This document shows, in pieces, positions 2,932 to 26,328 of a stretch of 26,328 bases of DNA. Origin of the DNA: a virus. The notes below the pieces were generated by a model. That model ran no database searches. It was not told where the DNA came from and saw only the letters and a program-made list of their open reading frames with translations. Numbering within the stretch: position 1 is the stretch's first letter; every line of letters starts with the position of its first letter. Location: positions 1 through 26,328 of IMG/VR virus record IMGVR_UViG_3300025769_000710; one strand, given 5' to 3'. Both the position numbers and the translations under genes were made by a program.

Positions 2932-3046
2932 TATATCTCCTGTTTTCTTTACGTACTAAGTATAGTGATATTACGTCAATAAAACTATTCGCAATGACAA
3001 TTAATACTGCCATCAGGACAGTTACATATTTGAATAATTGTTTCAT
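2915..3046 (-). CDS. tiny single-pass membrane protein
   Basis: A 43-residue ORF starting MKQLFKYV, coupled to the upstream gene by an ATGA overlap (ATG 3046-3044, TGA 3045-3043) and ending at TAG 2917-2915. Residues about 7-31 form one hydrophobic segment, followed by a basic tail (VRKENRRYNG). It is the third of four adjacent short genes with one membrane helix each. Holin, antiholin or spanin-like roles are possible, with no diagnostic motif. A 21-residue Cys-rich reading frame lies in another frame over the same bases (3050-2985); I judge the membrane frame more likely because it has the ATGA coupling and fills the gap. Confidence 0.5.
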   Translation of the reverse strand: MKQLFKYVTVLMAVLIVIANSFIDVISLYLVRKENRRYNGSSR

Positions 3047-3605: not shown

Positions 3606-4856
3606 TTATTGTATTAATTTTGTGTAATCTATATCTTTTATTTTTGTGTAATGTTGATACCAAGATAATGAACTCATAGGACCATGTGCAAAATCTGCTT
3701 TATCATGTGGATTTGTCCAACTCATACAATGCATAACCATTTCTTGTACTCCTTGAGAGGGAGTTTTAAAATAAGTTATTGCTTTATGTAAAGCATCTTT
3801 CCAAAAACTATTTTGTTTTTTATATGGAGATAAATAATGCAACATAATTGTATCTTTACATGCCATGTAATCATTGTGTATGGCTTCATTAGCGTACTCT
3901 GCACTATGTTCTCCTGCTATATATCCCCATATATGTCTATATGTTTGTGTGTTAAGCCATGATGTTGTTGCTTCCATAGGTTCTAAAAAATATCCTGATA
4001 ATCCTAAATACATATAATTATCTTTTATAATATTTTTTCTAATGTAATTATCAAATTTTAAACTGTATATATCATTAGTAACATTTACTTTTTCTTTATC
4101 TAATAATTCTTTAAATAATTTTTCAGCTTTTTCTTTTGAGTGTAAATTTCTGTTATACAAAAATCCATAGGTACATTCATCTAAAGTATCTATTGCCCAA
4201 CACCAACCTATGTCATGTGCTATATGCCTTGAACCATTAAATGGTTTTTTATTTTTAATTTTTGTTTTGTATATCAATGCAGAGTTTACAGGTATATCAT
4301 TATGTAATTCAAAATTTTTACTGTTTATATCACTAGGCATACCTGTACAATCTATAACATAATCGAATGTTTGAATAGAGTTATCTTCAAATATTAAATC
4401 CCATTTTTTATTTGTATATTTTTTATCTACAACTTTTTTGTTGTATATTTTTAAATTTTGATTTTTAATATCAATCCATTCGTTTTTGTTCATACGAACT
4501 GCACCATGTTCTTTTAAATTATTTAATACCCAATCTGACATTAAAGCAGTATTAAAATGTATGCCTGAAAGATGTGGTGGAAATGTATGATACCATTCTT
4601 TGTTACTTCCCCAATTTTCATACTTTATAAATCTTTTAGGAATTGCTCTAGTTTCTTTGCTGTGTTCAATTAAATCGTATCCTAATGAAAAATGTAAATC
4701 CATTGGAGTTATGATAGTTGTTGCTTCTCCTACTCCAACTAATGGTGTATGTTCATCATAAATTAAAGTTAAAGTTGTGTCTTCGATAGGAAAGCGAAGA
4801 AAATGTGCAGTGGCAAATGCACCTACACCTGCACCAATAATAGCTATATTTTTTAT
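3606..4856 (-). CDS. flavin-dependent halogenase (tryptophan halogenase family), apparent ATA start
   Basis: 416 residues read from ATA 4856. In order: a Rossmann FAD site IAIIGAGVGAFATAHF (residues 4-19, GxGxxG), GVGEATT (41-47), a conserved Lys at 74 in PKRFIKYENW, which aligns with the catalytic Lys79 region of PrnA, DYVIDCTG (165-172), the family GWxW motif as GWCW (217-220), and EPMEAT (292-297), with Glu295 matching the second catalytic Glu. These enzymes use FADH2, O2 and halide to make a hypohalite that reacts at the Lys. A cyanophage member (VirX1) is known to iodinate small aromatics. It is shorter than the usual 500-540 residues. The first ATG, 4703, would remove the FAD motif. No flavin reductase is visible. 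The substrate is unknown. Confidence 0.87.
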   Translation of the reverse strand: MKNIAIIGAGVGAFATAHFLRFPIEDTTLTLIYDEHTPLVGVGEATTIITPMDLHFSLGYDLIEHSKETRAIPKRFIKYENWGSNKEWYHTFPPHLSGIHFNTALMSDWVLNNLKEHGAVRMNKNEWIDIKNQNLKIYNKKVVDKKYTNKKWDLIFEDNSIQTFDYVIDCTGMPSDINSKNFELHNDIPVNSALIYKTKIKNKKPFNGSRHIAHDIGWCWAIDTLDECTYGFLYNRNLHSKEKAEKLFKELLDKEKVNVTNDIYSLKFDNYIRKNIIKDNYMYLGLSGYFLEPMEATTSWLNTQTYRHIWGYIAGEHSAEYANEAIHNDYMACKDTIMLHYLSPYKKQNSFWKDALHKAITYFKTPSQGVQEMVMHCMSWTNPHDKADFAHGPMSSLSWYQHYTKIKDIDYTKLIQ

Positions 4857-5575
4857 TCTTCTTCCTGTCTAGCTATTATTCTATATCCATTTTGAAAATG
4901 TGATGTGAGCCTTTGTCTATAACTTTGTATATAATCGTAATCTTCTTTTGTAGCTTGTCTAACTTCTAAATCTAAAACATCTTTTCTATTGAAAGGTACT
5001 ACATGTATAAGAGGAGTACCTGCTGATATCTTTACAACTTCATCAGGTACAATATCTATTTCAATAGGAAAATTAACCATAGGTGCAAAGTCTGAACGAA
5101 CTACACCAGGTAATATTCTTATACCTTTGTGAAAATCATAAAACATTTCTGTAATTCTTATGCTGTAATTTTTTGGTGTTTTCATAAACCATACATTGTT
5201 TATTTTCATTGCACCACCACCAGGTATGTTAGCCATAGGTGCTTCACCTATTTGTTCTTTACTGTGTGTACCAAATGCTGCATCAATACCTTGTAAATTA
5301 TTTTTCATAGCTTGTCTTACATGCAATTCACCATTGGTATTAAGAAAGTGCATGTCTGTCCATGCAGGTATAACAAATCCTTCGTTCATATACTCTACGA
5401 TTGCAGGACATGCTTTTATAGTTCTAGCCTTTTCTTTTTGTAAATCTTCAGTAAAACCATCAAACACTCCAGGTTTCATTTTTTTGTACCACTCTGGCAC
5501 ATATTGACTAGCAGGTATAGGTGGATAATTTTCTGCTACACCTTCTTCAAAAGTTATAAATTCTATTTTACTAAT
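4853..5575 (-). CDS. halogenase-cassette protein B, apparent ATT start
   Basis: Unrecognised family, 240 residues if read from ATT 5575. The in-frame GTG 5500 would remove 25 residues, including PPIPA (18-22) that leads into PEWYKK, and has no ribosome binding site, whereas ATT has AAGGAG nine bases upstream. Beta-rich, soluble, no signal peptide. Landmarks: Cys56-Pro57, VIPAW (68-72), a Gly/Pro loop NIPGGG near 116-121, and I183...G186...P188...FN (195-196). The first protein of the cassette has the same landmarks, so the two are distant paralogues. It lies directly before the halogenase (overlapping it by four bases) and may supply or bind its substrate; that is inference. Confidence 0.7.
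   Translation of the reverse strand: MSKIEFITFEEGVAENYPPIPASQYVPEWYKKMKPGVFDGFTEDLQKEKARTIKACPAIVEYMNEGFVIPAWTDMHFLNTNGELHVRQAMKNNLQGIDAAFGTHSKEQIGEAPMANIPGGGAMKINNVWFMKTPKNYSIRITEMFYDFHKGIRILPGVVRSDFAPMVNFPIEIDIVPDEVVKISAGTPLIHVVPFNRKDVLDLEVRQATKEDYDYIQSYRQRLTSHFQNGYRIIARQEEE
4863..4866 (-). promoter_or_regulatory. Shine-Dalgarno supporting the ATA start of the halogenase
   Basis: AGGA at 4866-4863 stands six bases before ATA 4856-4854. In this frame the last upstream stop is TAG 4871-4869, and no ATG, GTG or TTG occurs between it and the GxGxxG motif. The ATA overlaps the upstream stop as ATAA, much as ATGA or TAATG do elsewhere in the window. Confidence 0.55.
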
Positions 5576-12082: not shown

Positions 12083-12120
12083 GAAGAAATGGGAGGAAGG
12101 TGGATTCCCCCCAAATCTTC
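12083..12120 (-). other. stable hairpin after the major capsid gene, no U-tract
   Basis: On the minus strand, 12120-12083 folds as GAAGA/TCTTC (5 bp), a 2x2 TT/TT mismatch, then TGGGGGG/CCTCCCA (7 pairs including one G-T), with a 10-base loop (12106-12097). It begins ten bases after the capsid stop. The following bases are not T-rich, so it is not a classical intrinsic terminator. It may be an attenuator or protect the capsid mRNA 3' end. Confidence 0.6.
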
Positions 12121-12130
12121 AAATTAATTT

Positions 12131-13249
12131 CTAAGCTACGCCAGAAATCTTTAGGTGATAGGAAGGAGGACCGAAGTCGTATCCCATCTCCATGTAGATT
12201 GCTTTTGCAATTTTTGCAGAATCATCTTGGTCAATATCTCTTACGAATACTGTTCCGTATCCAGGGATATTTGTAAAGACTGGCTGTATGAAAGCAAAGT
12301 CTAAGATGAATGCTGTGTTTGCAGGTAAGATATTAGGGTCAATGACCATAAGACCAATTGAACCAAATGGTGTAACAATTGTGTCAATATCAATACCAGC
12401 GATAGCTCTATCTCTAGGAAGGATAGCACCTGTAATTCCAACATTACCTTCTAGTAATTCTTTGTTTAAGTCAAGCAATTGCTTTGGACTTACGCAAAGT
12501 ACTGGTTGTTGCATTGGAGCATGTGCGTCATATAATCTCTTTAGAGATTCTGCGACTGCATCCCAAGAAAGAACTTGAGCTGCTCCGCCACCATCTCCAT
12601 CAACATCGTTGTAGTATACGTTACCACCAACGAATGTTGGAGCTGCTGTATTATCAGCATTAGCATTTAATGCTACCCATTCTGAAAGACCTCTCATTTC
12701 ACGAGTACCAGCTCCTGGAGTGACGTTAGCACCGTCAGAGAAAGTACCGTTAAATGCGAACCATTCAACTTCTCTAGCTACTTTTTCAAGAGCTAAAGAC
12801 ATTTGCTCTGCAAATTCATCAACAATTGGATTGCTGTTAGCAAGACCTAATTCAGTTCCTGCAGCGTTAGTTCCATCTCCAGCTGATTGTGCAACAGCTG
12901 CTGCTGATAGCGTAAATGGATTTTGATGTTGATATGTTGCCATAGCTGTGTAGGTCATCTTTACACCTTTATGGAAAATTTGAGTAACGCTTGTGTAAGC
13001 TACTCTATCTCTTCCAAGATATTCTGTAGGAGCTGCACCTTCTTGAGCTTTATCTGGCTCAGAAGAAACTGTATGTGAGTCTGCAGCTTGGATTTGCCAG
13101 AAAGTAGATTGAATAACCTTACCTCCGTTTAATCCTCCTGTAGCAGAAAGAAATGGTGTTCTTTGACCACCTACACGGAATAATTCCCCAGAAAAGTTAT
13201 TAATATTCTGAGAATAAATTGTGTTACCTGTCAAGCTTATGCCTGCCAT
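12131..13249 (-). CDS. major capsid protein, HK97-fold (SU10/DUF5309-like)
   Basis: 372 residues. N-terminus MAGISLTGNTIYSQ, then RVGGQRTPFLSATGGLNGGK (26-45), QAADSH and EPDKAQEGAAPTEYLGR (64-80), VTQIFHKGVKMTYTAMA (88-104), a long acidic helix EFAEQMSLALEKVAREVEW (145-163), and a beta-rich second half with FGSIGLMVIDPNILPANTAF and a closing DYGFGPP-like segment. The order matches the SU10/DUF5309 type of HK97-fold major capsid proteins. The gene is visibly less AT-rich than its neighbours and has the strongest Shine-Dalgarno of the window, as expected for the most abundant virion protein. It directly follows the scaffold gene. Confidence 0.85.
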   Translation of the reverse strand: MAGISLTGNTIYSQNINNFSGELFRVGGQRTPFLSATGGLNGGKVIQSTFWQIQAADSHTVSSEPDKAQEGAAPTEYLGRDRVAYTSVTQIFHKGVKMTYTAMATYQHQNPFTLSAAAVAQSAGDGTNAAGTELGLANSNPIVDEFAEQMSLALEKVAREVEWFAFNGTFSDGANVTPGAGTREMRGLSEWVALNANADNTAAPTFVGGNVYYNDVDGDGGGAAQVLSWDAVAESLKRLYDAHAPMQQPVLCVSPKQLLDLNKELLEGNVGITGAILPRDRAIAGIDIDTIVTPFGSIGLMVIDPNILPANTAFILDFAFIQPVFTNIPGYGTVFVRDIDQDDSAKIAKAIYMEMGYDFGPPSYHLKISGVA

Positions 13250-13287: not shown

Positions 13288-13749
13288 TTATTTTTTATCT
13301 TGTTCAATCAAATTAAGCTTTGCTCTTAAACTGTCCTTTACAGTACCGTTTTGTATAACATTAGCTAATTGTTCGTTCAAGTTTTTTGGTACATCTGAAC
13401 TAGAATTTGCATCAAGTGCAGCTACTCTAGCACGTGCATCATCTTGTACCACTGGTTCAGGTTCAGGTTGTGTTATTTCCTCAACTTGACCTGTAGTTTC
13501 AAAACCATACTCGTCTTTAGCAAACTGTGCGATAGATTCTGCATCAACAGGACCATCATACACTTGTTTCAACGCTTTACCGAAACCTTTGTCAGTAGAT
13601 AAACCTAGCTTTCCAAAAACATTATTAATTTCTTTATCTTTAAAAGAAGCTAACTCTGCCTCTAGTTTTTTGATAGTTTCATCTTTTCTATCAATAGTTT
13701 CTCTCATTTGTTTTACACCATGTTCATTAGGTGCATCAAATTCTTCCAT
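13288..13749 (-). CDS. capsid scaffolding protein
   Basis: I choose ATG 13749 (153 residues) because GGAGGT ends four bases before it; the in-frame GTG at 13761 would place the start in front of that Shine-Dalgarno. Residues 1-40 are a charged, heptad-like helix (MRETIDRKDETIKKLEAELASF), followed by a compact helical part, a Pro/Glu linker (EEITQPEPEPVVQ near 93-105) and a basic helical C-terminus (KDSLRAKLNLIEQDKK). Small, acidic-then-basic helical proteins directly before the major capsid gene are typical scaffolds; their C-terminal basic helix binds the capsid protein. No protease is visible beside it. Confidence 0.75.
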   Translation of the reverse strand: MEEFDAPNEHGVKQMRETIDRKDETIKKLEAELASFKDKEINNVFGKLGLSTDKGFGKALKQVYDGPVDAESIAQFAKDEYGFETTGQVEEITQPEPEPVVQDDARARVAALDANSSSDVPKNLNEQLANVIQNGTVKDSLRAKLNLIEQDKK

Positions 13750-13753
13750 TAGT

Positions 13754-13759
13754 ACCTCC
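13754..13759 (-). promoter_or_regulatory. Shine-Dalgarno deciding the scaffold start
   Basis: GGAGGT at 13759-13754, followed by ACTA and ATG 13749. It stands outside the last proposed leader helix (which ends at 13765), so it would be exposed in that fold. Confidence 0.75.
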
Positions 13760-13761
13760 AC

Positions 13762-13945
13762 TATGTGTTAACCTATCAGACAAGACCATAGGCATCTTGC
13801 CGTGGTGCTACCTATAACACTTGACTTATACCTCTGGTAGCTAATAGCTATAAGTCCATTACTCTACGATTTTTAATACGAGCTTTCAACGTAGGCTTCG
13901 AAAGCTGATTGCAGGTCTATTATTTTGCGGACCACGCAACGCTAT
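13762..13945 (-). ncRNA. candidate structured leader RNA before scaffold/capsid genes
   Basis: No ORF explains these about 185 bases, and by hand count the stretch 13960-13761 is near 40% G+C, richer than its surroundings. Minus-strand helices: H1 TTGCG/CGCAA (13939-13935 with 13929-13925); H2 AGCTTTC/GAAAGCT (13906-13900 with 13887-13881), whose loop CTACG (13894-13890) is complementary to CGTAG (13868-13864), a possible H-type pseudoknot; H3 GACTTATA/TATAAGTC (13856-13849 with 13830-13823); H4 GTGTTA/TAACAC (13820-13815 with 13770-13765) enclosing H5 ACCA-C-GGCA/TGCC-TA-TGGT (13806-13785). A promoter precedes it and a Shine-Dalgarno follows. It could be a cis-acting control element or a stand-alone RNA. 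The fold was found by eye. Confidence 0.55.
13847..13858 (-). repeat. 12-base direct repeat, copy 2 (leader)
   Basis: TGGACTTATAGC on the minus strand at 13858-13847, identical to 13979-13968. This copy forms the 5' arm of leader helix H3. Confidence 0.7.
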
Positions 13946-13951
13946 ATGAAT

Positions 13952-13980
13952 ATTATATACTTAGTCTGCTATAAGTCCAA
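13952..13980 (-). promoter_or_regulatory. sigma70-type promoter for scaffold/capsid transcription
   Basis: A perfect -10 box TATAAT lies at 13957-13952. The -35 region is weaker: TTGGAC at 13980-13975 with a 17-base spacer, or TGGACT one base on with 16 bases (four of six matches). Transcription would start near 13945 and give a leader of about 195 nt before scaffold ATG 13749. The promoter overlaps the last codons of the preceding gene. It suggests extra transcription of the capsid module by the host RNA polymerase. Confidence 0.6.
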
Positions 13981-14995
13981 GTACTTCGTCACCTTTTTTA
14001 GCAGCGCCTAATGTAATGCCCTGTGAAGATGCTATGTCAGCTTGTGTACGTTGTACACGTTTTTTAGCTTCTTGTCTACCTAAAGCAGCTTCTTCAAGTG
14101 TAAATAAATCTAAATCTCTACCTACAGTTTTAGCTGATTGCATAATGTCAGCAGCAGATTCATAAAGAGTACTTGCTGTTTTAAGTGTCATACCTGCTTT
14201 TCTTAGCTCATCAAACCTTTCAAATGATGTAGTAAATCCAGCTGCAGCAGCTCTAGCTTCTATTTGTAATGTAGTTAACTCGCCTTTAAAAAGACCATCT
14301 TCAACATCTTTGTTAATTAATGCGCCAAATATTGCATCATCTGTAGCTTCAATATTATAATTTCTAGCAAATAATTCTCTTACTTTAGGAATATCATCTA
14401 TAACCATGTTATAAACTAAATCAATCCTATCTTGAAACTCTACTGGTGCAACTCCTGTTTTTACTAAATCTTTAAATTGATTTTCAAATTTACTAAAATC
14501 TGTAATTCCATATTCAGACAAAGTGTTTTTATAAGAATATACATTACTGATTGCTTCTAATTCTGACATTACTAATGAACCATCTTCTCTTACTAAATAA
14601 CCAAAATCTCTTTTCCATTCAGAAGTGTTTCTAGTAATACCTAAAGCAGCATCTGCATTTCCTGTTCTAGCCCAGTTTTTTGCAAATATATCTAATAAGT
14701 CATCAGAAAAAAAAGAATAAATATTTTGTGCTACACCTAATCCAGTTGCGTAATCAAAATTTGATGTAGAAGATGTAGTAGTTGTAGTATCAGTAGATTC
14801 AGTTTCAGGTACAAATTTAACAGTTGTACCATCATCTAAGGTTATATTACCGTCATTATAGGATACGACACCAAGCTTTTCGAATTCTTTTATTTTTGAT
14901 GTAAGTGTCCAACCTTGCTTTTCATAATCTTCTACTAAAGCAGCATCGACCATTGAATAAGAACCAGTATCTGTACGCATTTGTACTAAAGCCAT
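13961..14995 (-). CDS. putative internal virion protein (helical, Ala/Asp-rich)
   Basis: 344 residues, TAATG start. N-terminal small beta unit (YSMVDAALVEDYEKQGW, residues 13-29), a Thr/Ser-rich linker near 66-78, then an all-helical body. A stretch with LFARNYNIEATDDAIFGALINK (about 208-229) and LQIEARAAAAGFTTSFERFDEL (243-264) has the form of repeated helical units that I recall from large structural proteins of actinobacterial phages. No catalytic motif or membrane helix. Last of five large genes between portal and scaffold; its end carries the promoter for the capsid module. Confidence 0.6.
   Translation of the reverse strand: MALVQMRTDTGSYSMVDAALVEDYEKQGWTLTSKIKEFEKLGVVSYNDGNITLDDGTTVKFVPETESTDTTTTTSSTSNFDYATGLGVAQNIYSFFSDDLLDIFAKNWARTGNADAALGITRNTSEWKRDFGYLVREDGSLVMSELEAISNVYSYKNTLSEYGITDFSKFENQFKDLVKTGVAPVEFQDRIDLVYNMVIDDIPKVRELFARNYNIEATDDAIFGALINKDVEDGLFKGELTTLQIEARAAAAGFTTSFERFDELRKAGMTLKTASTLYESAADIMQSAKTVGRDLDLFTLEEAALGRQEAKKRVQRTQADIASSQGITLGAAKKGDEVLGLIAD
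13968..13979 (-). repeat. 12-base direct repeat, copy 1 (promoter -35 region)
   Basis: TGGACTTATAGC at 13979-13968, lying in the last codons of the upstream gene and in the -35/spacer region of the promoter. The second copy lies 121 bases downstream in the leader. Confidence 0.7.
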
Positions 14996-17069: not shown

Positions 17070-18259
17070 TAGCTACCTAACCTCCAAGCAAGATATTCTT
17101 TTTGCATTTTTTCTACTTGAGCAGCATCTTGCATAAATTCTATATCAGATTCTAATTCTTCAGTAAGCTGTCTTTGTGCAGCTTCTAAAGGATTTTCTAC
17201 TGAAAACTCAGGTTTTAATTCTTTAAACTCTACATAACCACCAACTGGTTGTTGTTCTGCACCCATTGCTTTAAATGCATCAGCACCATAATATGTGTTA
17301 TAAACTTCATTAGCTCTAATAGCTTTATCTTGTGCTATTAATGCTTGTACATATGGTGACCAATCTTTAGCAATTTGTTCAGCAAAATCAGCTTTACGTC
17401 TATCTGACATTTCTTTATTATGTAATGATTTATAAAGACTAAATAATTCATCTTCTAATTTTTGCTGAGTAGGTTCAATAACTTTAGCTCTAATTTCTTT
17501 AGCAGCTTCTATATCAATTGTTTTTCTATCAGCTTTAGCTTGGTTAAGCCATTCATCTAAAGCAATACTAAATATTTCTCTTGATTCAATTACTTGTTCA
17601 CTTAGTTGTGTATTTGCAAAATCTACACCACCAAATAATGAATTTATTTTTCCATCAATAGTACCTTGTTCAAAACCTTGCATGATTTTATCTTGCAAAC
17701 TATTACGTTCAAATCCACCTGGTGCATAACTGTCCATTTGTTCTATTGCATAGTTCATAACTTCTGCAATAAAAGCTTTTGTTATATTACCTTTAATACC
17801 ATTTACTTCATCACCTAAATCTTCTTCAGTTATATATCCAGCTTCAATTGCTTTATCTTGAATAGCTGCTGTTTGTGAAATAGTTAATGAACTTATAAAA
17901 GCATCAAAAAAGTTTGTAGCAGGAAATATATTATTTTTATCTACTTTAACTGTTTGTATCTGTCCATCTACAATTACAGGATTACCCTTTTCATCTTTAA
18001 CAGTTAGATATCTATCATCTGATGTAACACCAAATGGATTAATTGGAACAATAGGTTCATTTTTATTCGCTAAATTTGTTAAAGCTTGATTTACCCATAA
18101 AGAAATGCTTTGAATAGGTGTAGTTTCATCTAGTAATAATTGTTCTAATACAGCTGATACTTCTGTATTTAGTCCATAACCTGAAGGATTATTTATAATA
18201 TCATTTACTTTTAAACCTGTTTCTTGTTCTAAAGCAGCTATTTCTTCTGGTGTAGCCAT
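17069..18259 (-). CDS. putative virion protein, helical
   Basis: 396 residues, TAATG at both ends. Starts MATPEEIAALEQETGLKV. Mostly helical with a small beta insertion around residues 77-115 (RYLTVKDEKGNPVIVDGQIQ) and long charged helices from about 210 to the end, including a Glu/Gln-rich coiled-coil-like end (EAAQRQLTEELESDIEFMQD). No catalytic motif, signal peptide or membrane span. Unrecognised; probably structural by context. Confidence 0.6.
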   Translation of the reverse strand: MATPEEIAALEQETGLKVNDIINNPSGYGLNTEVSAVLEQLLLDETTPIQSISLWVNQALTNLANKNEPIVPINPFGVTSDDRYLTVKDEKGNPVIVDGQIQTVKVDKNNIFPATNFFDAFISSLTISQTAAIQDKAIEAGYITEEDLGDEVNGIKGNITKAFIAEVMNYAIEQMDSYAPGGFERNSLQDKIMQGFEQGTIDGKINSLFGGVDFANTQLSEQVIESREIFSIALDEWLNQAKADRKTIDIEAAKEIRAKVIEPTQQKLEDELFSLYKSLHNKEMSDRRKADFAEQIAKDWSPYVQALIAQDKAIRANEVYNTYYGADAFKAMGAEQQPVGGYVEFKELKPEFSVENPLEAAQRQLTEELESDIEFMQDAAQVEKMQKEYLAWRLGS

Positions 18260-21200
18260 TACGGATTAATTACCTCTCTTACAGCATCAGAACCTAATGT
18301 TCTTCTTTTTTCCTCTAAAGCTGTAGTATAGTCTAACATTTCTGTATCTCCAGCAAATAAACGTATAATTACATTTTGATAAACAGATAAAAATTCTGGA
18401 TATTCAAGTATCGTTGCATATGCAGCATCAGCAGCACGTTTTCTCATAGTAATAGCTACAGGGTCTTTAGAGTTTCTCCACCATGTAGTAGAACCAGTTC
18501 CGCTAAGTACTTGCGATTCTTTAACTAGCTCAACCCAATAATTATTGTAATATTCTTTAAAACCACGACCAGCTTCATAATTACTAGGAAAATCTAATGT
18601 AGTCCAATATGTTTCCATTTCTTCAAAAATATCTTGTGGTGTAGCTGTTTTACGTTTACCGTAAGCATCATTGTATCCAGGATATGCTTCTTCTAATGCA
18701 TTAGTATATGCTTTAATTAAAAAGTCAGAATATTTATTATCTCCAAAAGTAGCTCTTGTTTTTTCAGCATATCTTTGTTTTCTAAACCAAGCAGCTGTGT
18801 CATTTGCAGCATATAAGTATTCATTAGGATTTCTAGTAGTTTCAAATATCATTTGGTCAAATGTACGTTCTGCTTGTGGATTAGAAGGATTTAAAAAGTT
18901 GTATGAGTTAGGTAATAACTGTATTTCTTTTTCATGTTCTTTTTTCCATTGAACAACAGAACGGTCATAAACTTTTGCACCAGCTGTTCTATCTTTAGTT
19001 GTAGTAGTAATATATGCATGGTCTATACCGTAAACATCATAAAATTCTTCAGCTGCTGCTAATTGATTACCAAAATGTTTTTCAACTAATTTACTGTATT
19101 CTTCAGATAAAACTGCAGTTGACCACCATTTACCTGTTTTATCTGTTATTGCTGATTTAAGAACAAAACCAGTTGGTAAAGCAAACTGTGCTAATGCTCT
19201 TATGTTTAATGATTGTTGAGCTTTTAATGCAGACCATCTTAAAGTAGCTTTATCTAAAATTTCTGGTGTTAATTGTCCAGGTTTGTAAGGATAACTTTCT
19301 GCACCTGTTTTTTGAAAGTAAGTTAATAATTCATCAAAACCAATAACTTCACGTTTGCCATCCCAGTTATCCATTAAGTCATTAATATATTTATCTAACT
19401 CACCATTCTTAAGAAGTCTTTGTTGGTCATAACTACTTTTAACTGCTTCGTATAGGTTTAATGTAGATTCAGCACGCATAGTCATATGTACATCATTCAT
19501 ATCCCAATTAATAAAATTGTTATCTTCATCAACATATGTGTCACTAAATGTTTCAGCAATTAAATCAAGGCCACCTTTACCATATTTTGTACCAGCTCTA
19601 TACTTTGAAAAATATGGATTTTTACTACCTAATATTGCTTCTTGTAAATCTTTTGGTGGTGGAAAATCTCCAAAAAATTGGTCTTGAAATGATTGATTTA
19701 CTTCAGTAGCATCCATAAGTTCATTTAAATAAAACTGTATCATCGGTTGTGTAGAAGGAAATTTTTGTGTACTAACCATATTTAAACCACCTGAATAACC
19801 TTTAGCTACCATTTTAAAGTTAGCACCATCACCATAAAGCATATTGTTATATCTTTCATTCCAAGGATATAAAAATACTGACTCATCTGATACAGGGTCT
19901 ACACCGAAAAAACCTTGCCCACCATAAACTTCTGTACCTTCTAATGTTTTTAATCCTTTATTTGCATAATTAATATTTCTGCCCATAAATGGATTTTTCA
20001 TAAATGCTGTTCCCCAACGTTTACCTATTTCGATAAATACTTCAGGGAATGGAAATACATTTCTTGTAACGTCAGATATTCTATGCCTATTTTTAGTATC
20101 ATACAAAAATGATTTCATTGTTGTAACAGCATAAGCATTAGCTAAATCAGACCAAGCTTTGTAATTTGTTTGTGTACCAGATTGTAATGCAGCTCTACCT
20201 TTTATTTTTTTAATCATATAGTTAGGTATTTTTGCTTCAACTGCTTCATTAATAAATTTAGCTTGTGTTGCTTTATCAAATTTATGTATGTTTGAAGATA
20301 AAAATATCCAACGATATTGTTTAAATATCGGACTTCTATTTAATCTTGCTAATGGAGATGACAATAATGTTTCAAATATGCTACCCATTAAATTATCATA
20401 ATCTTGTAAAGCTCTATTTAAACCAGCATATTCAGGATTTTTTGGAAGTATTGCATAACCAAAATCATATAACAACTCTCCATCATCACCTACAGCTGTT
20501 ATATAACTTTTAATTGCTTTATTTAGTTTAGCTCTATCTTTTGGTTTATAAATTTCATACATATTGTCATATTTAGGAAGCATGCGTACTATAGTGTCAT
20601 TTATTTCATCATAAAATGTACCTGTAGCTATTCCTTTACGTAATTCTGTGCTACCTGTAAAACCTTTACTAACATTAAAATCATCTGTACCATCTGCTAA
20701 TCTAAAATAATCTACGCCTTCTTCTAGTGACATACCAGTATTCATTCGTATTTCAAATTCACGTTCTCTTAAATAACGTAACCAATCTTCTTGTTTTCTA
20801 ATATCATATTTACCTATTTGAGTTTGAGTAAAAGTTGAACCTGTTGCATCAATAAGTTGTTGCCTCATTTCTGCAGCTTCTTTTGAAGTAGACCATGCAA
20901 AAATATCATCCCAGCTTTCAAATCCAGCTACCCTACGTGATATAGGGTCTAAATATAATTTTTCAAATTGAAATAATCTTGCATTAACAGAATTTTCATT
21001 TAATCTTCCTGATTTTGTAGTAGGAGAAACAGGAACATATATTGTATTTTTTTTGTTAATTTTTGCAGTATTAAAATTATTGTAACTTAAATTAGCTGAA
21101 ATAGCTTCGTGATGTAGGTGACTTAAAGTTATTTCATTTACATCTTTACCACTATCCATAACTTCTTTCATAATTTTTTTAACCCATGAACGTTTAGGTA

Positions 21201-24156
21201 AATAACCATAACTAAACAACCATTGAAAATAAAACAAAGGACTATCTAACATTCCTTTTATATCTGGATGCACTGCAAAATATACTTGTTCTTCTAATAA
21301 AACTCTTTGTGTTAATGCAGGTTTTACAATTGTTTTAGGTTTAAATAATCTACCCATCCAACCATCTAAAACTAATGTAAATATATCTCTATCAATTTGT
21401 TTACCAGGTATTTTTAACCCTTTAATACCTTCATCTCCTAATTCTTGTATTAATGTTTTAACACCATCCATAAAAGTTAAATTTTCTAAATCAGGTATTT
21501 CATCAAAAAATACACCTAATGTTCTATCTACTACTCTTCTATTTAACAAAGGCGCACCCATATTTGCTGCTTCAGATAATTTAGTAATTGTTGGTATAAA
21601 AGTTGTTTCACCTGTATCAGGATTTGTCATGCGTGCAGTCCAAGGACTATTAATCATTTTACCTTTAGGGTCAATAAGATAAAGCTGTATTTGTTCTTCG
21701 TTATTAAATACTTTGTCATAATGTCTTTGTAGAATTTCAGCACGTTTAGGATTACGTGCAAGAGCAACATCATCTATTTGTGCTTCTGCTAATTTTCTTG
21801 CAAATTTATTAACATTGTTAATTGTATATTTCATATCAAGAAATTCATTTAATAAATCGTTTGCTTTATTTAATCCCATACCTGTAGTCATAAGTTGTTT
21901 AACAACATTGTTATAACCTTCAGTCCTATTAGAATATGAAATCATTTTTCCAGGTAATATAGATAATTTTTTTCTCCAGTATGGTGACATACCTGCTGTC
22001 ATTTCAGAATAAAAACCTAGATTTCTACCTAAACGCTCACCTGTTTCTTTCCATTTATAAAAATCGTTTACATTAAGCGCATTTACATCATTTGCAATAT
22101 TAGGCTTAACAGTCTGCAAACGACTAGCAACACCCCTATAAACGCCTCTAAATGTAGTATCAACGGTTTCTATAGCCTTTCCTACACTTCTACCTGCAAT
22201 TGAACCTATTGATGGTAAACCAGAAACTCTACCACCTGTTACTTTTTTAACAGCTTCGTTAAGTAATAAAGACTGACCTTTTGGTAATGTATTTAAAAAG
22301 AACGGTGTATCTACACCTTTAACTTTATAACCATCGCCATAAGCATAAGTAAAAATATTTTTAATTTCTTGTCTATCATCTGTTTTAGATAACAATTGTT
22401 TTATTTCAGGTGGAAAATTTCTTGTCCAAGAGTTATTGTCAAACTCTAATAAATTAGAAGTTTTTGATATATCGTCAATTATTCCAGCTTCGTCTAGTCT
22501 ATTTACTAATTTAGCTTCAGTACCTGCAAAAACACCCTTAACAGTGCCGCCAATAAGACCATACTCTTTACGTAATTTTCTTGTTTCTTTACGAGCTAAC
22601 TCTAATGTTTCTTTTAATTCAGGTACAAAGTTTTTATTTTTTGTATTTACTATATCAATAGAATCAAGAGTACCTTGTATATCTTCAACAGCTTTACCAG
22701 TTAATGGATTTTTTTGATTTGTATTTACCCAATCAGTTACTATTTCAGATTTTTTAACTGGACTATATAGTTCTTCATAATCGTTTAATCTATTAACAAC
22801 TTTAAGAAGCTCTCTACCTTTAAATAATTTACTAATAACTCCACCAGTTACTAACTCAGGAATAATTCTAGCTTTACCATCAATCCAACCAGACATAGAA
22901 TTATATGCTTCAGAACCTACACGGTGTTGCATAGATGCTTCATACCTACCTTGTGAATAAGGTATCTTTACGCCTAGTTTTTCATTAATATTCATTTCAT
23001 TTCGCATACCAGCTTCCTCTGCCATTTCAGGATTGTATATAAATCTCCTACCAGCAAATGCTTCTATACGATTAGGATTTTGAATAGATGTCCAATTTAT
23101 TTCACCGTCTTCATTTGGTTTAACAATTGGCTGACCAATTTTAGAATATATATATTTCTTAGCTTCATTTTCAGGCATTACTTTAAGTAAGTCTTGATAC
23201 TCAGGCATATTTTCTGCCATAAGTGATTCAACAGAAATAATCTTACTTCTGTTGTAATTAAGAGGTTGCCCTAAATTAATTTGATTTAACATTTCAAATA
23301 AATAAGGACTACCACCTAATTCTTTAGCTTCTTGAGCAAATTTAATCCATTGTTTAGTTTCAGCTAACCAATTTTCTTTTTGACCTAAACCTTCAACTTT
23401 AGTTGCACTTACATCAATAGGGATAAATTTTTGTGCTTCTTCTTTTGTATAACCTGCTTCCATGTATCTATCTAAAGCATTTAACTGCTGTGCATACGCC
23501 CAAGTTCTTGAGTTAAACATCATATGATTATTTTTAACTAAATATTGACCACCAGGAATAGTAAATAACATTTTTTGTAAAGGATTTAAATTATTATATT
23601 CTTCAGTAGTAACAAATTCATTTGTTTCTCGGTTGTAATATGGTTTATCAGTTAAAGTACCTGAAACATTAAAAGGATTGTATTTTACATTTAATTCTGA
23701 TAATGCGTCTTGTAATGCAACAAACCATAAAGAAGTTTGTGTTTTACCAACTTTTATTTGTTTATCTTCACCTCTAAAAGTACCTACAACATATTCTGGA
23801 ATAGAACCTAAACCAAATAAAATATCACCATAGTTCATGGTCATATCTTCAATATATCTACCTTGATTGTTTTTTTCTCTAGTTGCTTCCCAAACTTCAC
23901 CTTTTTGTGCTAATTGATTTTTTACATAATCATCTGTTAAATCTTGTATTGATTGACTATCTACAGGTAATTGTTCGTTTTTAGCTAAAGGGTCTAATAT
24001 TTCAATAGGCAAAGCACCATAACGTTCAGATAACGCACTTAATCTAGTTGCATACTGTGGATTATCTTTTAAATATTTTTCTGCAGCAGCATACTTTTGA
24101 CGTTCAAGATTTGCGTTTATTCCAAACTCTCTTTGACTAATAAAGCTATTTAACAT
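18259..24156 (-). CDS. giant structural protein, likely internal/ejection protein
   Basis: 1965 residues, 22% of the window. It abuts the preceding gene (TAAATG). Rich in Asn, Tyr, Lys and Trp, mostly helical. A section near residues 400-720 has Gly/Val/Ile-rich stretches (PELVTGGVISKLF, VTGGRVSGLPSIGSIAGR) that might contact membrane. Around residues 1370-1480 lies a conserved-looking block with NVFPFPEVFIEIGKRWG and DESVFLYPWNERYN, which reminds me of a giant structural protein of actinobacterial phages. I looked for RNA polymerase and lysozyme motifs and found none. It lacks the regular heptads of a tape-measure protein. Virion location is inferred from size, context and composition. Confidence 0.6.
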   Translation of the reverse strand: MLNSFISQREFGINANLERQKYAAAEKYLKDNPQYATRLSALSERYGALPIEILDPLAKNEQLPVDSQSIQDLTDDYVKNQLAQKGEVWEATREKNNQGRYIEDMTMNYGDILFGLGSIPEYVVGTFRGEDKQIKVGKTQTSLWFVALQDALSELNVKYNPFNVSGTLTDKPYYNRETNEFVTTEEYNNLNPLQKMLFTIPGGQYLVKNNHMMFNSRTWAYAQQLNALDRYMEAGYTKEEAQKFIPIDVSATKVEGLGQKENWLAETKQWIKFAQEAKELGGSPYLFEMLNQINLGQPLNYNRSKIISVESLMAENMPEYQDLLKVMPENEAKKYIYSKIGQPIVKPNEDGEINWTSIQNPNRIEAFAGRRFIYNPEMAEEAGMRNEMNINEKLGVKIPYSQGRYEASMQHRVGSEAYNSMSGWIDGKARIIPELVTGGVISKLFKGRELLKVVNRLNDYEELYSPVKKSEIVTDWVNTNQKNPLTGKAVEDIQGTLDSIDIVNTKNKNFVPELKETLELARKETRKLRKEYGLIGGTVKGVFAGTEAKLVNRLDEAGIIDDISKTSNLLEFDNNSWTRNFPPEIKQLLSKTDDRQEIKNIFTYAYGDGYKVKGVDTPFFLNTLPKGQSLLLNEAVKKVTGGRVSGLPSIGSIAGRSVGKAIETVDTTFRGVYRGVASRLQTVKPNIANDVNALNVNDFYKWKETGERLGRNLGFYSEMTAGMSPYWRKKLSILPGKMISYSNRTEGYNNVVKQLMTTGMGLNKANDLLNEFLDMKYTINNVNKFARKLAEAQIDDVALARNPKRAEILQRHYDKVFNNEEQIQLYLIDPKGKMINSPWTARMTNPDTGETTFIPTITKLSEAANMGAPLLNRRVVDRTLGVFFDEIPDLENLTFMDGVKTLIQELGDEGIKGLKIPGKQIDRDIFTLVLDGWMGRLFKPKTIVKPALTQRVLLEEQVYFAVHPDIKGMLDSPLFYFQWLFSYGYLPKRSWVKKIMKEVMDSGKDVNEITLSHLHHEAISANLSYNNFNTAKINKKNTIYVPVSPTTKSGRLNENSVNARLFQFEKLYLDPISRRVAGFESWDDIFAWSTSKEAAEMRQQLIDATGSTFTQTQIGKYDIRKQEDWLRYLREREFEIRMNTGMSLEEGVDYFRLADGTDDFNVSKGFTGSTELRKGIATGTFYDEINDTIVRMLPKYDNMYEIYKPKDRAKLNKAIKSYITAVGDDGELLYDFGYAILPKNPEYAGLNRALQDYDNLMGSIFETLLSSPLARLNRSPIFKQYRWIFLSSNIHKFDKATQAKFINEAVEAKIPNYMIKKIKGRAALQSGTQTNYKAWSDLANAYAVTTMKSFLYDTKNRHRISDVTRNVFPFPEVFIEIGKRWGTAFMKNPFMGRNINYANKGLKTLEGTEVYGGQGFFGVDPVSDESVFLYPWNERYNNMLYGDGANFKMVAKGYSGGLNMVSTQKFPSTQPMIQFYLNELMDATEVNQSFQDQFFGDFPPPKDLQEAILGSKNPYFSKYRAGTKYGKGGLDLIAETFSDTYVDEDNNFINWDMNDVHMTMRAESTLNLYEAVKSSYDQQRLLKNGELDKYINDLMDNWDGKREVIGFDELLTYFQKTGAESYPYKPGQLTPEILDKATLRWSALKAQQSLNIRALAQFALPTGFVLKSAITDKTGKWWSTAVLSEEYSKLVEKHFGNQLAAAEEFYDVYGIDHAYITTTTKDRTAGAKVYDRSVVQWKKEHEKEIQLLPNSYNFLNPSNPQAERTFDQMIFETTRNPNEYLYAANDTAAWFRKQRYAEKTRATFGDNKYSDFLIKAYTNALEEAYPGYNDAYGKRKTATPQDIFEEMETYWTTLDFPSNYEAGRGFKEYYNNYWVELVKESQVLSGTGSTTWWRNSKDPVAITMRKRAADAAYATILEYPEFLSVYQNVIIRLFAGDTEMLDYTTALEEKRRTLGSDAVREVINP

Positions 24157-24758: not shown

Positions 24759-26328
24759 TTATAAACCAAAAGCAGCTGCCATGTTAGGAGGTTGTCCTCC
24801 ACCTTGCATCATTTGTTGCTGCATTAATTGTTGTTGCATCATAGCCATTTGTTCAGGAGATACTTGTGGCTCTTCTGGAGTATAAAACTGTTTAAATATT
24901 TCCAATATTGCTGCTGGATTTTCATAAACAGCTATAGCTGCCATAGTAGCTTGTGCATCACCTTGAGCAGACCTTTGTAATAATGCATCAAATAAAACAC
25001 TTTCTGCTTTATTTTTTCTAATACGTTCTTGTACTTTTTGTATATTTTCTAAACCATCAATGTTATCTTGCAATGTTTCGACATCAATAACACCAGCTTG
25101 TAGTAACTGCAAACCAGTAACAATTTTTTGTGGTTCGTCAAAACCAGCCATAACACCATAAACACGTCTAGTTCTATAGTCACCACCAATATCTTGTAAT
25201 GGTGTATAGTTTTCAGAAAATGCAGTTCCGTTTAAATAACCTGCCATAGGTTTTTTACCTACAGCTTGAGAGTAAGATAAAACTGTATCCATCTCTAAAC
25301 GTTTAGCATCCATTTCAACTAGACCATGTTTAATGATTTCTCTATACTCGTTAATCATTAATGACATTGCACCGTTAAGTTCTTGCAGACCAGCACCAGT
25401 AACAAAACTGTTTGGTGACTGTGCATCATCAGTAACTGGGTAACCACCTACTAAACGAAGCTGTCTTTCCAACCTATCGATTTGTTGAAACAATTGATAT
25501 GGCATATTGTTTTGTGGTTTAGAAACTTGTGTACCAGGAGCTAGATAGTTAACAGCAAATCTACCTTTTCTATATTGTCCTGATTCTATCTCTCCTGATA
25601 TGTTAGTTTCTGTAAATACAGAATCTTCCATAGCAATTGCTGACATAATATTAATCTTTGCCATCATTGCCATTAATCCAATTACATGGTCGTATTGACC
25701 TTTAAGCATGTCAAAAGATACTCTCTTAACAAATACAAATGGTGGAGTTGATAGTACGTTAGGAATAAAATCTAAAATTAATCTACGTTCTGGGAATATT
25801 ATGTATGTACCACCTTGGTCATAATACTCGACAACACGAACACCTTGGGATGTATTATCTTCCCACTGTTGTTCACGGTTAGTATCATATGACATAAATG
25901 GTGTAGCATAATCTTGATATTCTTCACCTGTTTCGTCATCATCATCTTGTTTTAAAATTTGTTCTGCAAACTCAGGATATATCTGTGCAAGTTTATATCT
26001 AGGTACTCTACGTACAACAGCTAACTCTCTAGGTTTTTGGTCTGGACCAAAGTTACCTGGGAATGTATCAAACGGGTCACGTAGTTCAGCACTAGGATAA
26101 TAAAAACCATTTTTATCTCTTTTAGTTGTAATTACCCATGCACAGAAACCATAACCTGGTAGCCATCTAGAAGCTTGTGCTAATTGTAAACTTAAGTTTT
26201 GTTTTTCATCATAGCTAGTAACAATACGTTCTAGTTTTTCTGCTCTGTTTTTTGCTCTAGCAGAATCTACTGCATTAGGAATATCTACACGTACATTAGG
26301 TACACCTGATATTTTTTGTGCAAGTCTA
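24759..26328 (-). CDS. portal protein, partial (N-terminus beyond window)
   Basis: The frame is open to the window edge; 522 residues are visible, and the ATG at 25895 is internal. Mixed alpha/beta body with GYGFCAWVITTKRDKNGFYY, DPFDTFPGNF, a Trp/Tyr-rich beta section, a long central helix region (YDHVIGLMAMMAKINIMSAI) and GRFAVNYLAPGTQVSKPQ, then IDRLERQLRLVGGYP and SPNSFVTGAGLQELNGAMS, which has the look of the stem and tunnel-loop part of portals. The C-terminus is Gln/Met-rich (QMAMMQQQLMQQQ). First structural gene in the transcription order and followed by virion genes. I recognise the overall type but not the subfamily. Confidence 0.75.
   Translation of the reverse strand, partial: RLAQKISGVPNVRVDIPNAVDSARAKNRAEKLERIVTSYDEKQNLSLQLAQASRWLPGYGFCAWVITTKRDKNGFYYPSAELRDPFDTFPGNFGPDQKPRELAVVRRVPRYKLAQIYPEFAEQILKQDDDDETGEEYQDYATPFMSYDTNREQQWEDNTSQGVRVVEYYDQGGTYIIFPERRLILDFIPNVLSTPPFVFVKRVSFDMLKGQYDHVIGLMAMMAKINIMSAIAMEDSVFTETNISGEIESGQYRKGRFAVNYLAPGTQVSKPQNNMPYQLFQQIDRLERQLRLVGGYPVTDDAQSPNSFVTGAGLQELNGAMSLMINEYREIIKHGLVEMDAKRLEMDTVLSYSQAVGKKPMAGYLNGTAFSENYTPLQDIGGDYRTRRVYGVMAGFDEPQKIVTGLQLLQAGVIDVETLQDNIDGLENIQKVQERIRKNKAESVLFDALLQRSAQGDAQATMAAIAVYENPAAILEIFKQFYTPEEPQVSPEQMAMMQQQLMQQQMMQGGGQPPNMAAAFGL

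Follow-up and report, generated by a model that had tools for sequence, protein, structure and literature searches.

What use does a phage make of 199 nt without an open reading frame (ORF) directly ahead of its putative scaffold and capsid genes? The question is raised by a metagenomic IMG/VR virus record, analysed here over a stretch of 26 328 nt (the window), which derives from an uncultured, probably marine phage; all the relatives compared with it are likewise metagenomic contigs. The gap lies on the minus strand (13762-13960), and an earlier note, made from the letters of the window, had described it as the only large one. It is the largest intergenic gap, but two other sizeable ones exist, at 4704-4852 (149 nt) and 2932-3042 (111 nt), near a tryptophan-halogenase-like gene (3606-4703) and small genes. 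That a phage carries a gene of the tryptophan halogenase family (minus strand; Pfam PF04820, E 1e-26), adjoined by a weak DUF6065 match at 4853-5500, is an observation apart. The landmarks around the gap are the following.

13961-14995, minus strand: gene upstream of the leader, 344 aa
13952..13979, minus strand: sigma70-like promoter overlapping the 3′ end of the upstream gene, with -35 TGGACT at 13979-13974 and -10 TATAAT at 13957-13952
13747..13759, minus strand: Shine-Dalgarno (SD) GGAGG (13759-13755) and ATG (13749-13747) of the putative scaffold gene
13288..13749, minus strand: putative scaffold protein gene, matching phrog_7813 (unknown function)
12131..13249, minus strand: major capsid protein gene (Pfam SU10_MCP, E 3e-43; phrog_1328, major head protein)

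The phrog_7813 ORF (157 codons) is taken as a putative scaffold gene from its size and its place ahead of the capsid gene. Its start is likely ATG 13749 and not the GTG 13761 of the ORF list; the GGAGG, which bears out the strong SD noted previously after the leader, is separated from this ATG by 5 nt, and GGAGGTAC, in the SD/start region, is invariant across 60 sequences of the window's own leader family (family A, see below). Elsewhere in the window, position suggests that the 378-aa gene at 24759-25895 encodes the portal protein; between it and the capsid module lies a 1965-aa ORF (18259-24156, minus strand), unusually large for its position.

The perfect TATAAT announced in the earlier note is indeed present at 13957-13952 on the minus strand, with the -35-like hexamer TGGACT upstream at a spacing of 16 nt, and the promoter stretch TGTATAAT is nearly invariant among relatives. 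The -10 box is followed after 7-9 nt by the first paired base of PK1, the first structural module, in representatives of all eight leader families, and after 7-10 nt by the first invariant base in 59 of the 60 family-A members. Since transcription usually starts 6-8 nt past the -10 box, PK1 would begin at about +1 to +3, the start site itself being placed by promoter spacing. As a side observation, the 12-mer TGGACTTATAGC occurs twice on the minus strand, in the -35 region within the upstream gene (13979-13968) and in the 5′ strand of PK3 (13858-13847), and most members of family A have GGACTT in both positions.

From promoter to SD, the leader transcript of the minus strand comprises four consecutive H-type pseudoknots (PK1 to PK4), whose eight helices form four interleaved pairs (S1 and S2 in each).

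13911..13943, minus strand: PK1, S1 AGCG (13943-13940) with CGCA (13929-13926)
within 13911..13943, minus strand: PK1 S2, GC (13937-13936) and GGUC (13933-13930) with GACC-U-GC (13917-13911)
13864..13905, minus strand: PK2, S1 GCUUUC (13905-13900) with GAAAGC (13887-13882)
within 13864..13905, minus strand: PK2 S2, CUACG (13894-13890) with CGUAG (13868-13864)
13807..13856, minus strand: PK3, S1 GACUUAUA (13856-13849) with UAUAAGUC (13830-13823)
within 13807..13856, minus strand: PK3 S2, GCUACC (13841-13836) with GGUAGC (13812-13807)
13761..13801, minus strand: PK4, S1 GGCAAGA (13801-13795) with UCUUGUC (13785-13779)
within 13761..13801, minus strand: PK4 S2, CUAUG (13791-13787) with CAUAG (13765-13761), ending 1 nt before the SD

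Five helices and one possible pseudoknot, between CTACG 13894-13890 and CGTAG 13868-13864, had been proposed before. The structured leader and this H-type pseudoknot, which is PK2 S2, both stand; the number of helices does not, as eight conserved ones are arranged in four tandem pseudoknots.

A search with the capsid protein in IMG/VR returned 80 loci, 70 of which share the window's leader sequence family while the remainder have unrelated leaders. A leader of similar length occupies the same place in all of them but one, a contig truncated inside the scaffold gene, which answers the earlier reservation that the gap might be absent from close relatives. In one locus (L070, 3027-3233) the leader is present and about 350 nt of extra sequence separate it from the matched part of the upstream gene. 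After further capsid searches the set reached 163 unique leaders in eight sequence-unrelated families (A, 67; F, 46; E, 39; B, 4; C, D and G, 2 each; d, 1), only unique sequences being counted because many fetched loci repeat the same contigs. A chain of three to four H-type pseudoknots is found in all eight families, with a wholly different sequence from one family to another; on our reading of the alignments there would be four pseudoknots in A, C, D and d, and three in B, E, F and G. PK1 is weak in D and d.

Is this structure real? Nested minimum-free-energy folding is misleading as a test of it, since such folds cannot hold pseudoknots: the nested fold is unremarkable, at -46 kcal/mol against -41.8 ± 4.3 kcal/mol for shuffled sequences (z -1.0). 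The pseudoknot-aware chain search of the window gave z -5.2, none of 100 shuffles being as good, and thus disposes of the suspicion that the fold is no better than that of shuffled sequence. Pairing was then assessed, without editing, on the alignment of 60 distinct family-A sequences. For the 46 pairs of the eight helices, 98.1% of the cells are paired, compared with 31-44% when the partners are slid by one to three columns. The covariation among homologues that the earlier note had asked for is present: 22 of the 46 pairs have changed on both sides, in 149 cells (shuffles give 12.1 and 27.4, respectively; 0/500), the covariation score is 0.211 against 0.089 ± 0.004 for shuffled alignments (0/500), and 41 double compensatory events are reconstructed by joint parsimony. 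Broken pairs occur only in PK1 and PK3-S1, at the variable end pairs of those stems. Under a phylogeny-aware null, in which the substitutions of each column are replayed on random branches of a tree built from the same alignment (a limitation of the test), all four stems of PK3 and PK4 reach p<=0.0005, and the almost invariant stems of PK1 and PK2 p 0.0185-0.097.

The compensatory variants can be followed module by module. PK1 S1 has three canonical pairs in the window and four in most relatives (AGCG/CGCU in most of family A); it becomes GACG/CGUC in L044 and L077, AGUG/CACU in L078, and AGUCG/CGACU in family C (L496). In PK2, CUGCG/CGCAG replaces the S2 pairing in 11 of 60 sequences, and GAUUUC/GAAAUC is found in L078-80. 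The PK3 S1 core is GACUUAU/AUAAGUC across family A, and PK3 varies to GUUAUC/GAUAAC, CCUACC/GGUAGG and GUUACA/UGUAAC; PK4 varies to CACGG/CCGUG and CACAG/CUGUG. Loop stretches are highly conserved inside families (AGAGUAA, CAAGUG, GUUGCGUGGUCC).

When pairs are taken one at a time in family A, with an R-scape-like null over all 20 503 column pairs, no helix pair falls below E 0.05, because so little varies in this alignment; even so, four of the top five pairs in the scan are helix pairs (E 0.15-0.65). Whole helices and other families were therefore tested. Both stems of PK1 and PK2-S1 reach p<=0.0005 in family F, as does PK1-S1 in family E, where PK3-S1 reaches p<=0.0015. The helices of family F are GUGCC/GGCAC or CUGCG/CGCAG and ACGA/UCGU, GUGA/UCAC or GCAG/CUGC in the first pseudoknot, then a variable PK2 stem with CAAGG/CCUUG, and then CUAGC/GCUAG, CUGGC/GCCAG or CAAGC/GCUUG. 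Those of family E are, in order, CCC/GGG or CUGC/GCAG, CUACUG/CAGUAG, and UCAUAC/GUAUGA or CUGAUG/CAUUAG, the register of PK1-S2 being AGGUC/GACCU. Family C has AGUCG/CGACU, UACGG/CCGUA, AAUAGA/UCUAUU and CGAC/GUCG; between D and d, CUACG/CGUAG is exchanged for CCUCG/CGAGG, and CACAC/GUGUG adjoins AGGAG. Chains predicted de novo from single sequences are weak in B, D, d, F (L353) and G (z -1.3 to -1.8), so the structures of these families rest on comparison. We conclude that the leader structure is real, the comparative sequence evidence being decisive.

One could argue that the inverted repeats and the promoter mark a DNA site (for packaging, recombination or an operator), or that a protein was missed. 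Within the helices, however, 79 cells hold G-U and 4 hold A-C, an excess that shows selection on the RNA of the minus strand and not on DNA or the other strand; interleaved pairings covary, and indels of any length argue against coding. We consider a DNA site or a missed protein extremely unlikely.

As the earlier note had surmised, the leader corresponds to no known RNA class and is not a tRNA. Rfam gave no match at the gathering threshold in the window, and at a permissive threshold a single irrelevant snoRNA match on the plus strand (E 1.2), outside the leader; there was none either in nine relatives covering other leader families, and ARAGORN found 0 tRNA or tmRNA genes in the window. By DNA similarity the leader is absent from the named phage records of INPHARED, where only chance matches of 20-35 nt occur. 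The nearest capsid among named phages, that of Mycobacterium phage Mendokysei, is about 29% identical, too distant for the leader RNA to be expected, and neighbouring genes used as queries led to no closer named phage. A PK1-core pattern was searched in bacterial genomes; the matches listed look like chance, and none of them has a credible full-model score.

These searches bear on a further possibility, a ligand-sensing riboswitch that would gate capsid synthesis. The preQ1 and SAM-II switches work with single H-type pseudoknots, and here the loops are highly conserved within families and the last pseudoknot adjoins the SD. But the conserved loops differ completely between families that serve the same gene, no alternative pairing sequestering the SD was noticed, and no riboswitch model of Rfam, preQ1 and SAM-II included, has a match in the window or the nine relatives. 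Such a switch therefore seems to us very unlikely.

Which transcript does the leader belong to? Directly downstream of the capsid gene lies a second conserved structure.

12083..12120, minus strand: terminator-like stem-loop directly 3′ of the capsid gene (GAAGA/UCUUC, UGGGGGGAA/UUCCUCCCA, loop UCCACC, T-rich 3′ side)

It is found in all eight leader families, and both strands of its stem have changed among them (e.g. L353, L325, L400), in pairings that include GGGUGG/CCACCC, GUGUGGC/GCCACAC and GGGAGUAG/CUGCUCCC. Because it resembles an intrinsic terminator, leader, scaffold and capsid probably form a discrete mRNA of about 1.86 kb. The UCCACC loop is nearly invariant and the 3′ flank UCUGCUAUAGUAAGGA is conserved; loop and flank are conserved beyond the needs of a terminator, and the loop resembles an anti-SD.

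No terminator was found in the window within the leader or between it and the scaffold gene, and this weighs against another proposal of the earlier note, that of a separate RNA for packaging or host control. The leader would then be cut from the mRNA and act in trans, in packaging like the phi29 pRNA or, in the manner of ToxI, as a decoy that draws off a toxin or host factor. Stable trans-acting RNAs do include compact pseudoknot chains, and this chain is self-contained. Yet the structure ends at the SD of the scaffold gene: the chain stops 0-1 nt short of it in families A and D, which have no conserved spacer that could be a cleavage site, and a few to about 9 nt short of it in the others. 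The family-E motif was located in 88 contig stretches, and the capsid gene follows 612-669 nt downstream in all 69 that are long enough, the other 19 being cut short; it was never seen away from the capsid operon. Moreover, the modules are not repeats of one sequence, and Rfam, phi29 packaging RNA included, has no match in the window; the absent terminator itself argues against a free RNA. This proposal has consequently lost ground, and we now hold it to be quite unlikely.

The element has the marks of a cis-acting leader, since its conserved structure lies between the promoter and the start codon and adjoins the same gene each time; from its position and strand a role in cis is likely. The chain persists despite a complete change of sequence, which suggests that the knotted shape itself must matter for capsid production. 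A shape kept without its sequence, from +1 on, fits a physical role, in which the 5′ end is shielded and the SD left free. Judging by the spacing of the promoter, transcription would begin no more than about 3 nt from PK1, if not at PK1 itself, and the RNA would fold, as covariation indicates, into three to four consecutive H-type pseudoknots from its 5′ end down to an unpaired SD. Most likely, the 5′ end would thereby be hidden from 5′-end-dependent decay (through RppH/RNase E or, according to the host, RNase J), the compact rod leaving the SD open; together with the post-capsid stem-loop, the 5′ pseudoknots would give a long-lived mRNA for the most abundant proteins of the phage, and the last pseudoknot, near the SD, would be a point where ribosome loading could also be adjusted. 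It is well established that RNase E is impeded by base pairing at the 5′ terminus (Bouvet and Belasco, and Arnold et al. for the ompA leader; both references in PMC3997798). The earlier note had considered that the leader might tune capsid and scaffold synthesis or protect the mRNA, and such a role is likely. The fuller reading, a cis-acting 5′-terminal leader of a discrete scaffold-capsid mRNA that both protects the message and sets scaffold and capsid output, has in our estimate about an even chance of being right.

One difficulty is that a single stable 5′ hairpin suffices to protect an mRNA, so simple protection leaves three to four maintained pseudoknots unexplained. Another comes from the scaffold gene. 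Leader family tracks the lineage of the scaffold protein and not that of the capsid: across leader families scaffolds are at most 55% identical, whereas capsids up to 97% identical stand behind different leaders. As such capsid genes follow unrelated leader and scaffold genes (L320-L550), these phages seem often to recombine between their scaffold and capsid genes. The association of leader with scaffold may point to regulation by the scaffold protein, which counts against plain protection. Unassembled scaffold (or capsid) protein could bind the chain and block ribosome loading or speed decay, so that scaffold synthesis would keep pace with its consumption; the scaffolding protein of P22 is reported to lower its own synthesis post-transcriptionally (King, Wyckoff and Casjens). 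The distance of 0-1 nt from last pseudoknot to SD in families A and D would suit such an operator, and several similar modules in a row would suit an oligomeric protein. However, leader and scaffold gene are adjacent and linkage alone could explain their co-segregation, the SD is unpaired, and with a primary sequence wholly different between families protein-RNA recognition would have to co-evolve. Feedback by the scaffold protein is the main rival to 5′ protection; we regard it as possible but doubtful, and the two roles are compatible.

Structured 5′ leaders are a known kind, to which this one would belong by its sequence features, but our literature search found no precedent for a tandem-pseudoknot leader in phage mRNA. 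The closest described design is the STAXI motif of bacteria, a pseudoknot repeated two, usually three times in a row, which lies near DNA-handling genes (ssDNA-binding protein, integrase, topoisomerase, antirestriction) and frequently has UUCG tetraloops (Weinberg et al. 2010, PMC2864571). The phage modules differ from it in sequence, start at the promoter and precede putative scaffold and capsid genes, and the STAXI model of Rfam has no match in the window or the nine relatives. ToxI, the type III antitoxin, also has tandem pseudoknot units upstream of a gene. Its units are short repeats, nearly identical to one another, with a terminator and the toxin gene behind them; here four unlike modules, with no terminator in the leader, are followed by putative scaffold and capsid genes. 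Several pseudoknots (PK1-PK4), some in tandem, are also combined in the pseudoknot domain of tmRNA (PMC1168896), whereas our leader has neither tRNA-like domain nor tag reading frame, in agreement with the negative ARAGORN and Rfam results. Consecutive pseudoknots make up the upstream pseudoknot domain of tobamoviruses, which takes part in replication and translation (PMC4683447); that domain belongs to the 3′ UTR of plant RNA viruses, whereas the present chain lies at the 5′ end of an mRNA from a bacteriophage. Among phages, the T4 gene 32 leader carries a pseudoknot in the 5′ leader of the mRNA of an abundant, self-repressing protein. That leader has one pseudoknot, accompanied by an operator that is unstructured, and its sequence is unrelated; here only the co-segregation of leader and scaffold is seen. 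Stabilising leaders of the ompA type (references in PMC3997798) are simple hairpins, in contrast with the pseudoknot chain; the phage leader would share with them a place at the extreme 5′ end of a strongly expressed message, where structure is expected to retard 5′-end-dependent decay.

Hundreds of coat subunits go into a phage head, and assembly requires them in a set proportion to scaffold; to our knowledge, RNA-level setting of head-protein output in tailed phages is known in few systems. At its boldest, the material could be taken to define an undescribed, widespread class of phage RNA, a chain of three to four pseudoknots from the first nucleotide to the SD that would be bound by free scaffold and would couple head-protein synthesis to assembly, its architecture remaining constant as the module sequences are re-invented from one scaffold lineage to the next; we think this unlikely, if not negligibly so. 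The comparison brings to light a conserved architecture of RNA, not represented in Rfam, that is tied to the scaffold-capsid operon across at least eight sequence-unrelated leader families. It also shows that phage leaders can harbour structured RNAs missed by nested-fold statistics. Two old questions thereby become testable, namely whether 5′ pseudoknots stabilise phage late mRNA and whether the scaffold protein feeds back on its own message.
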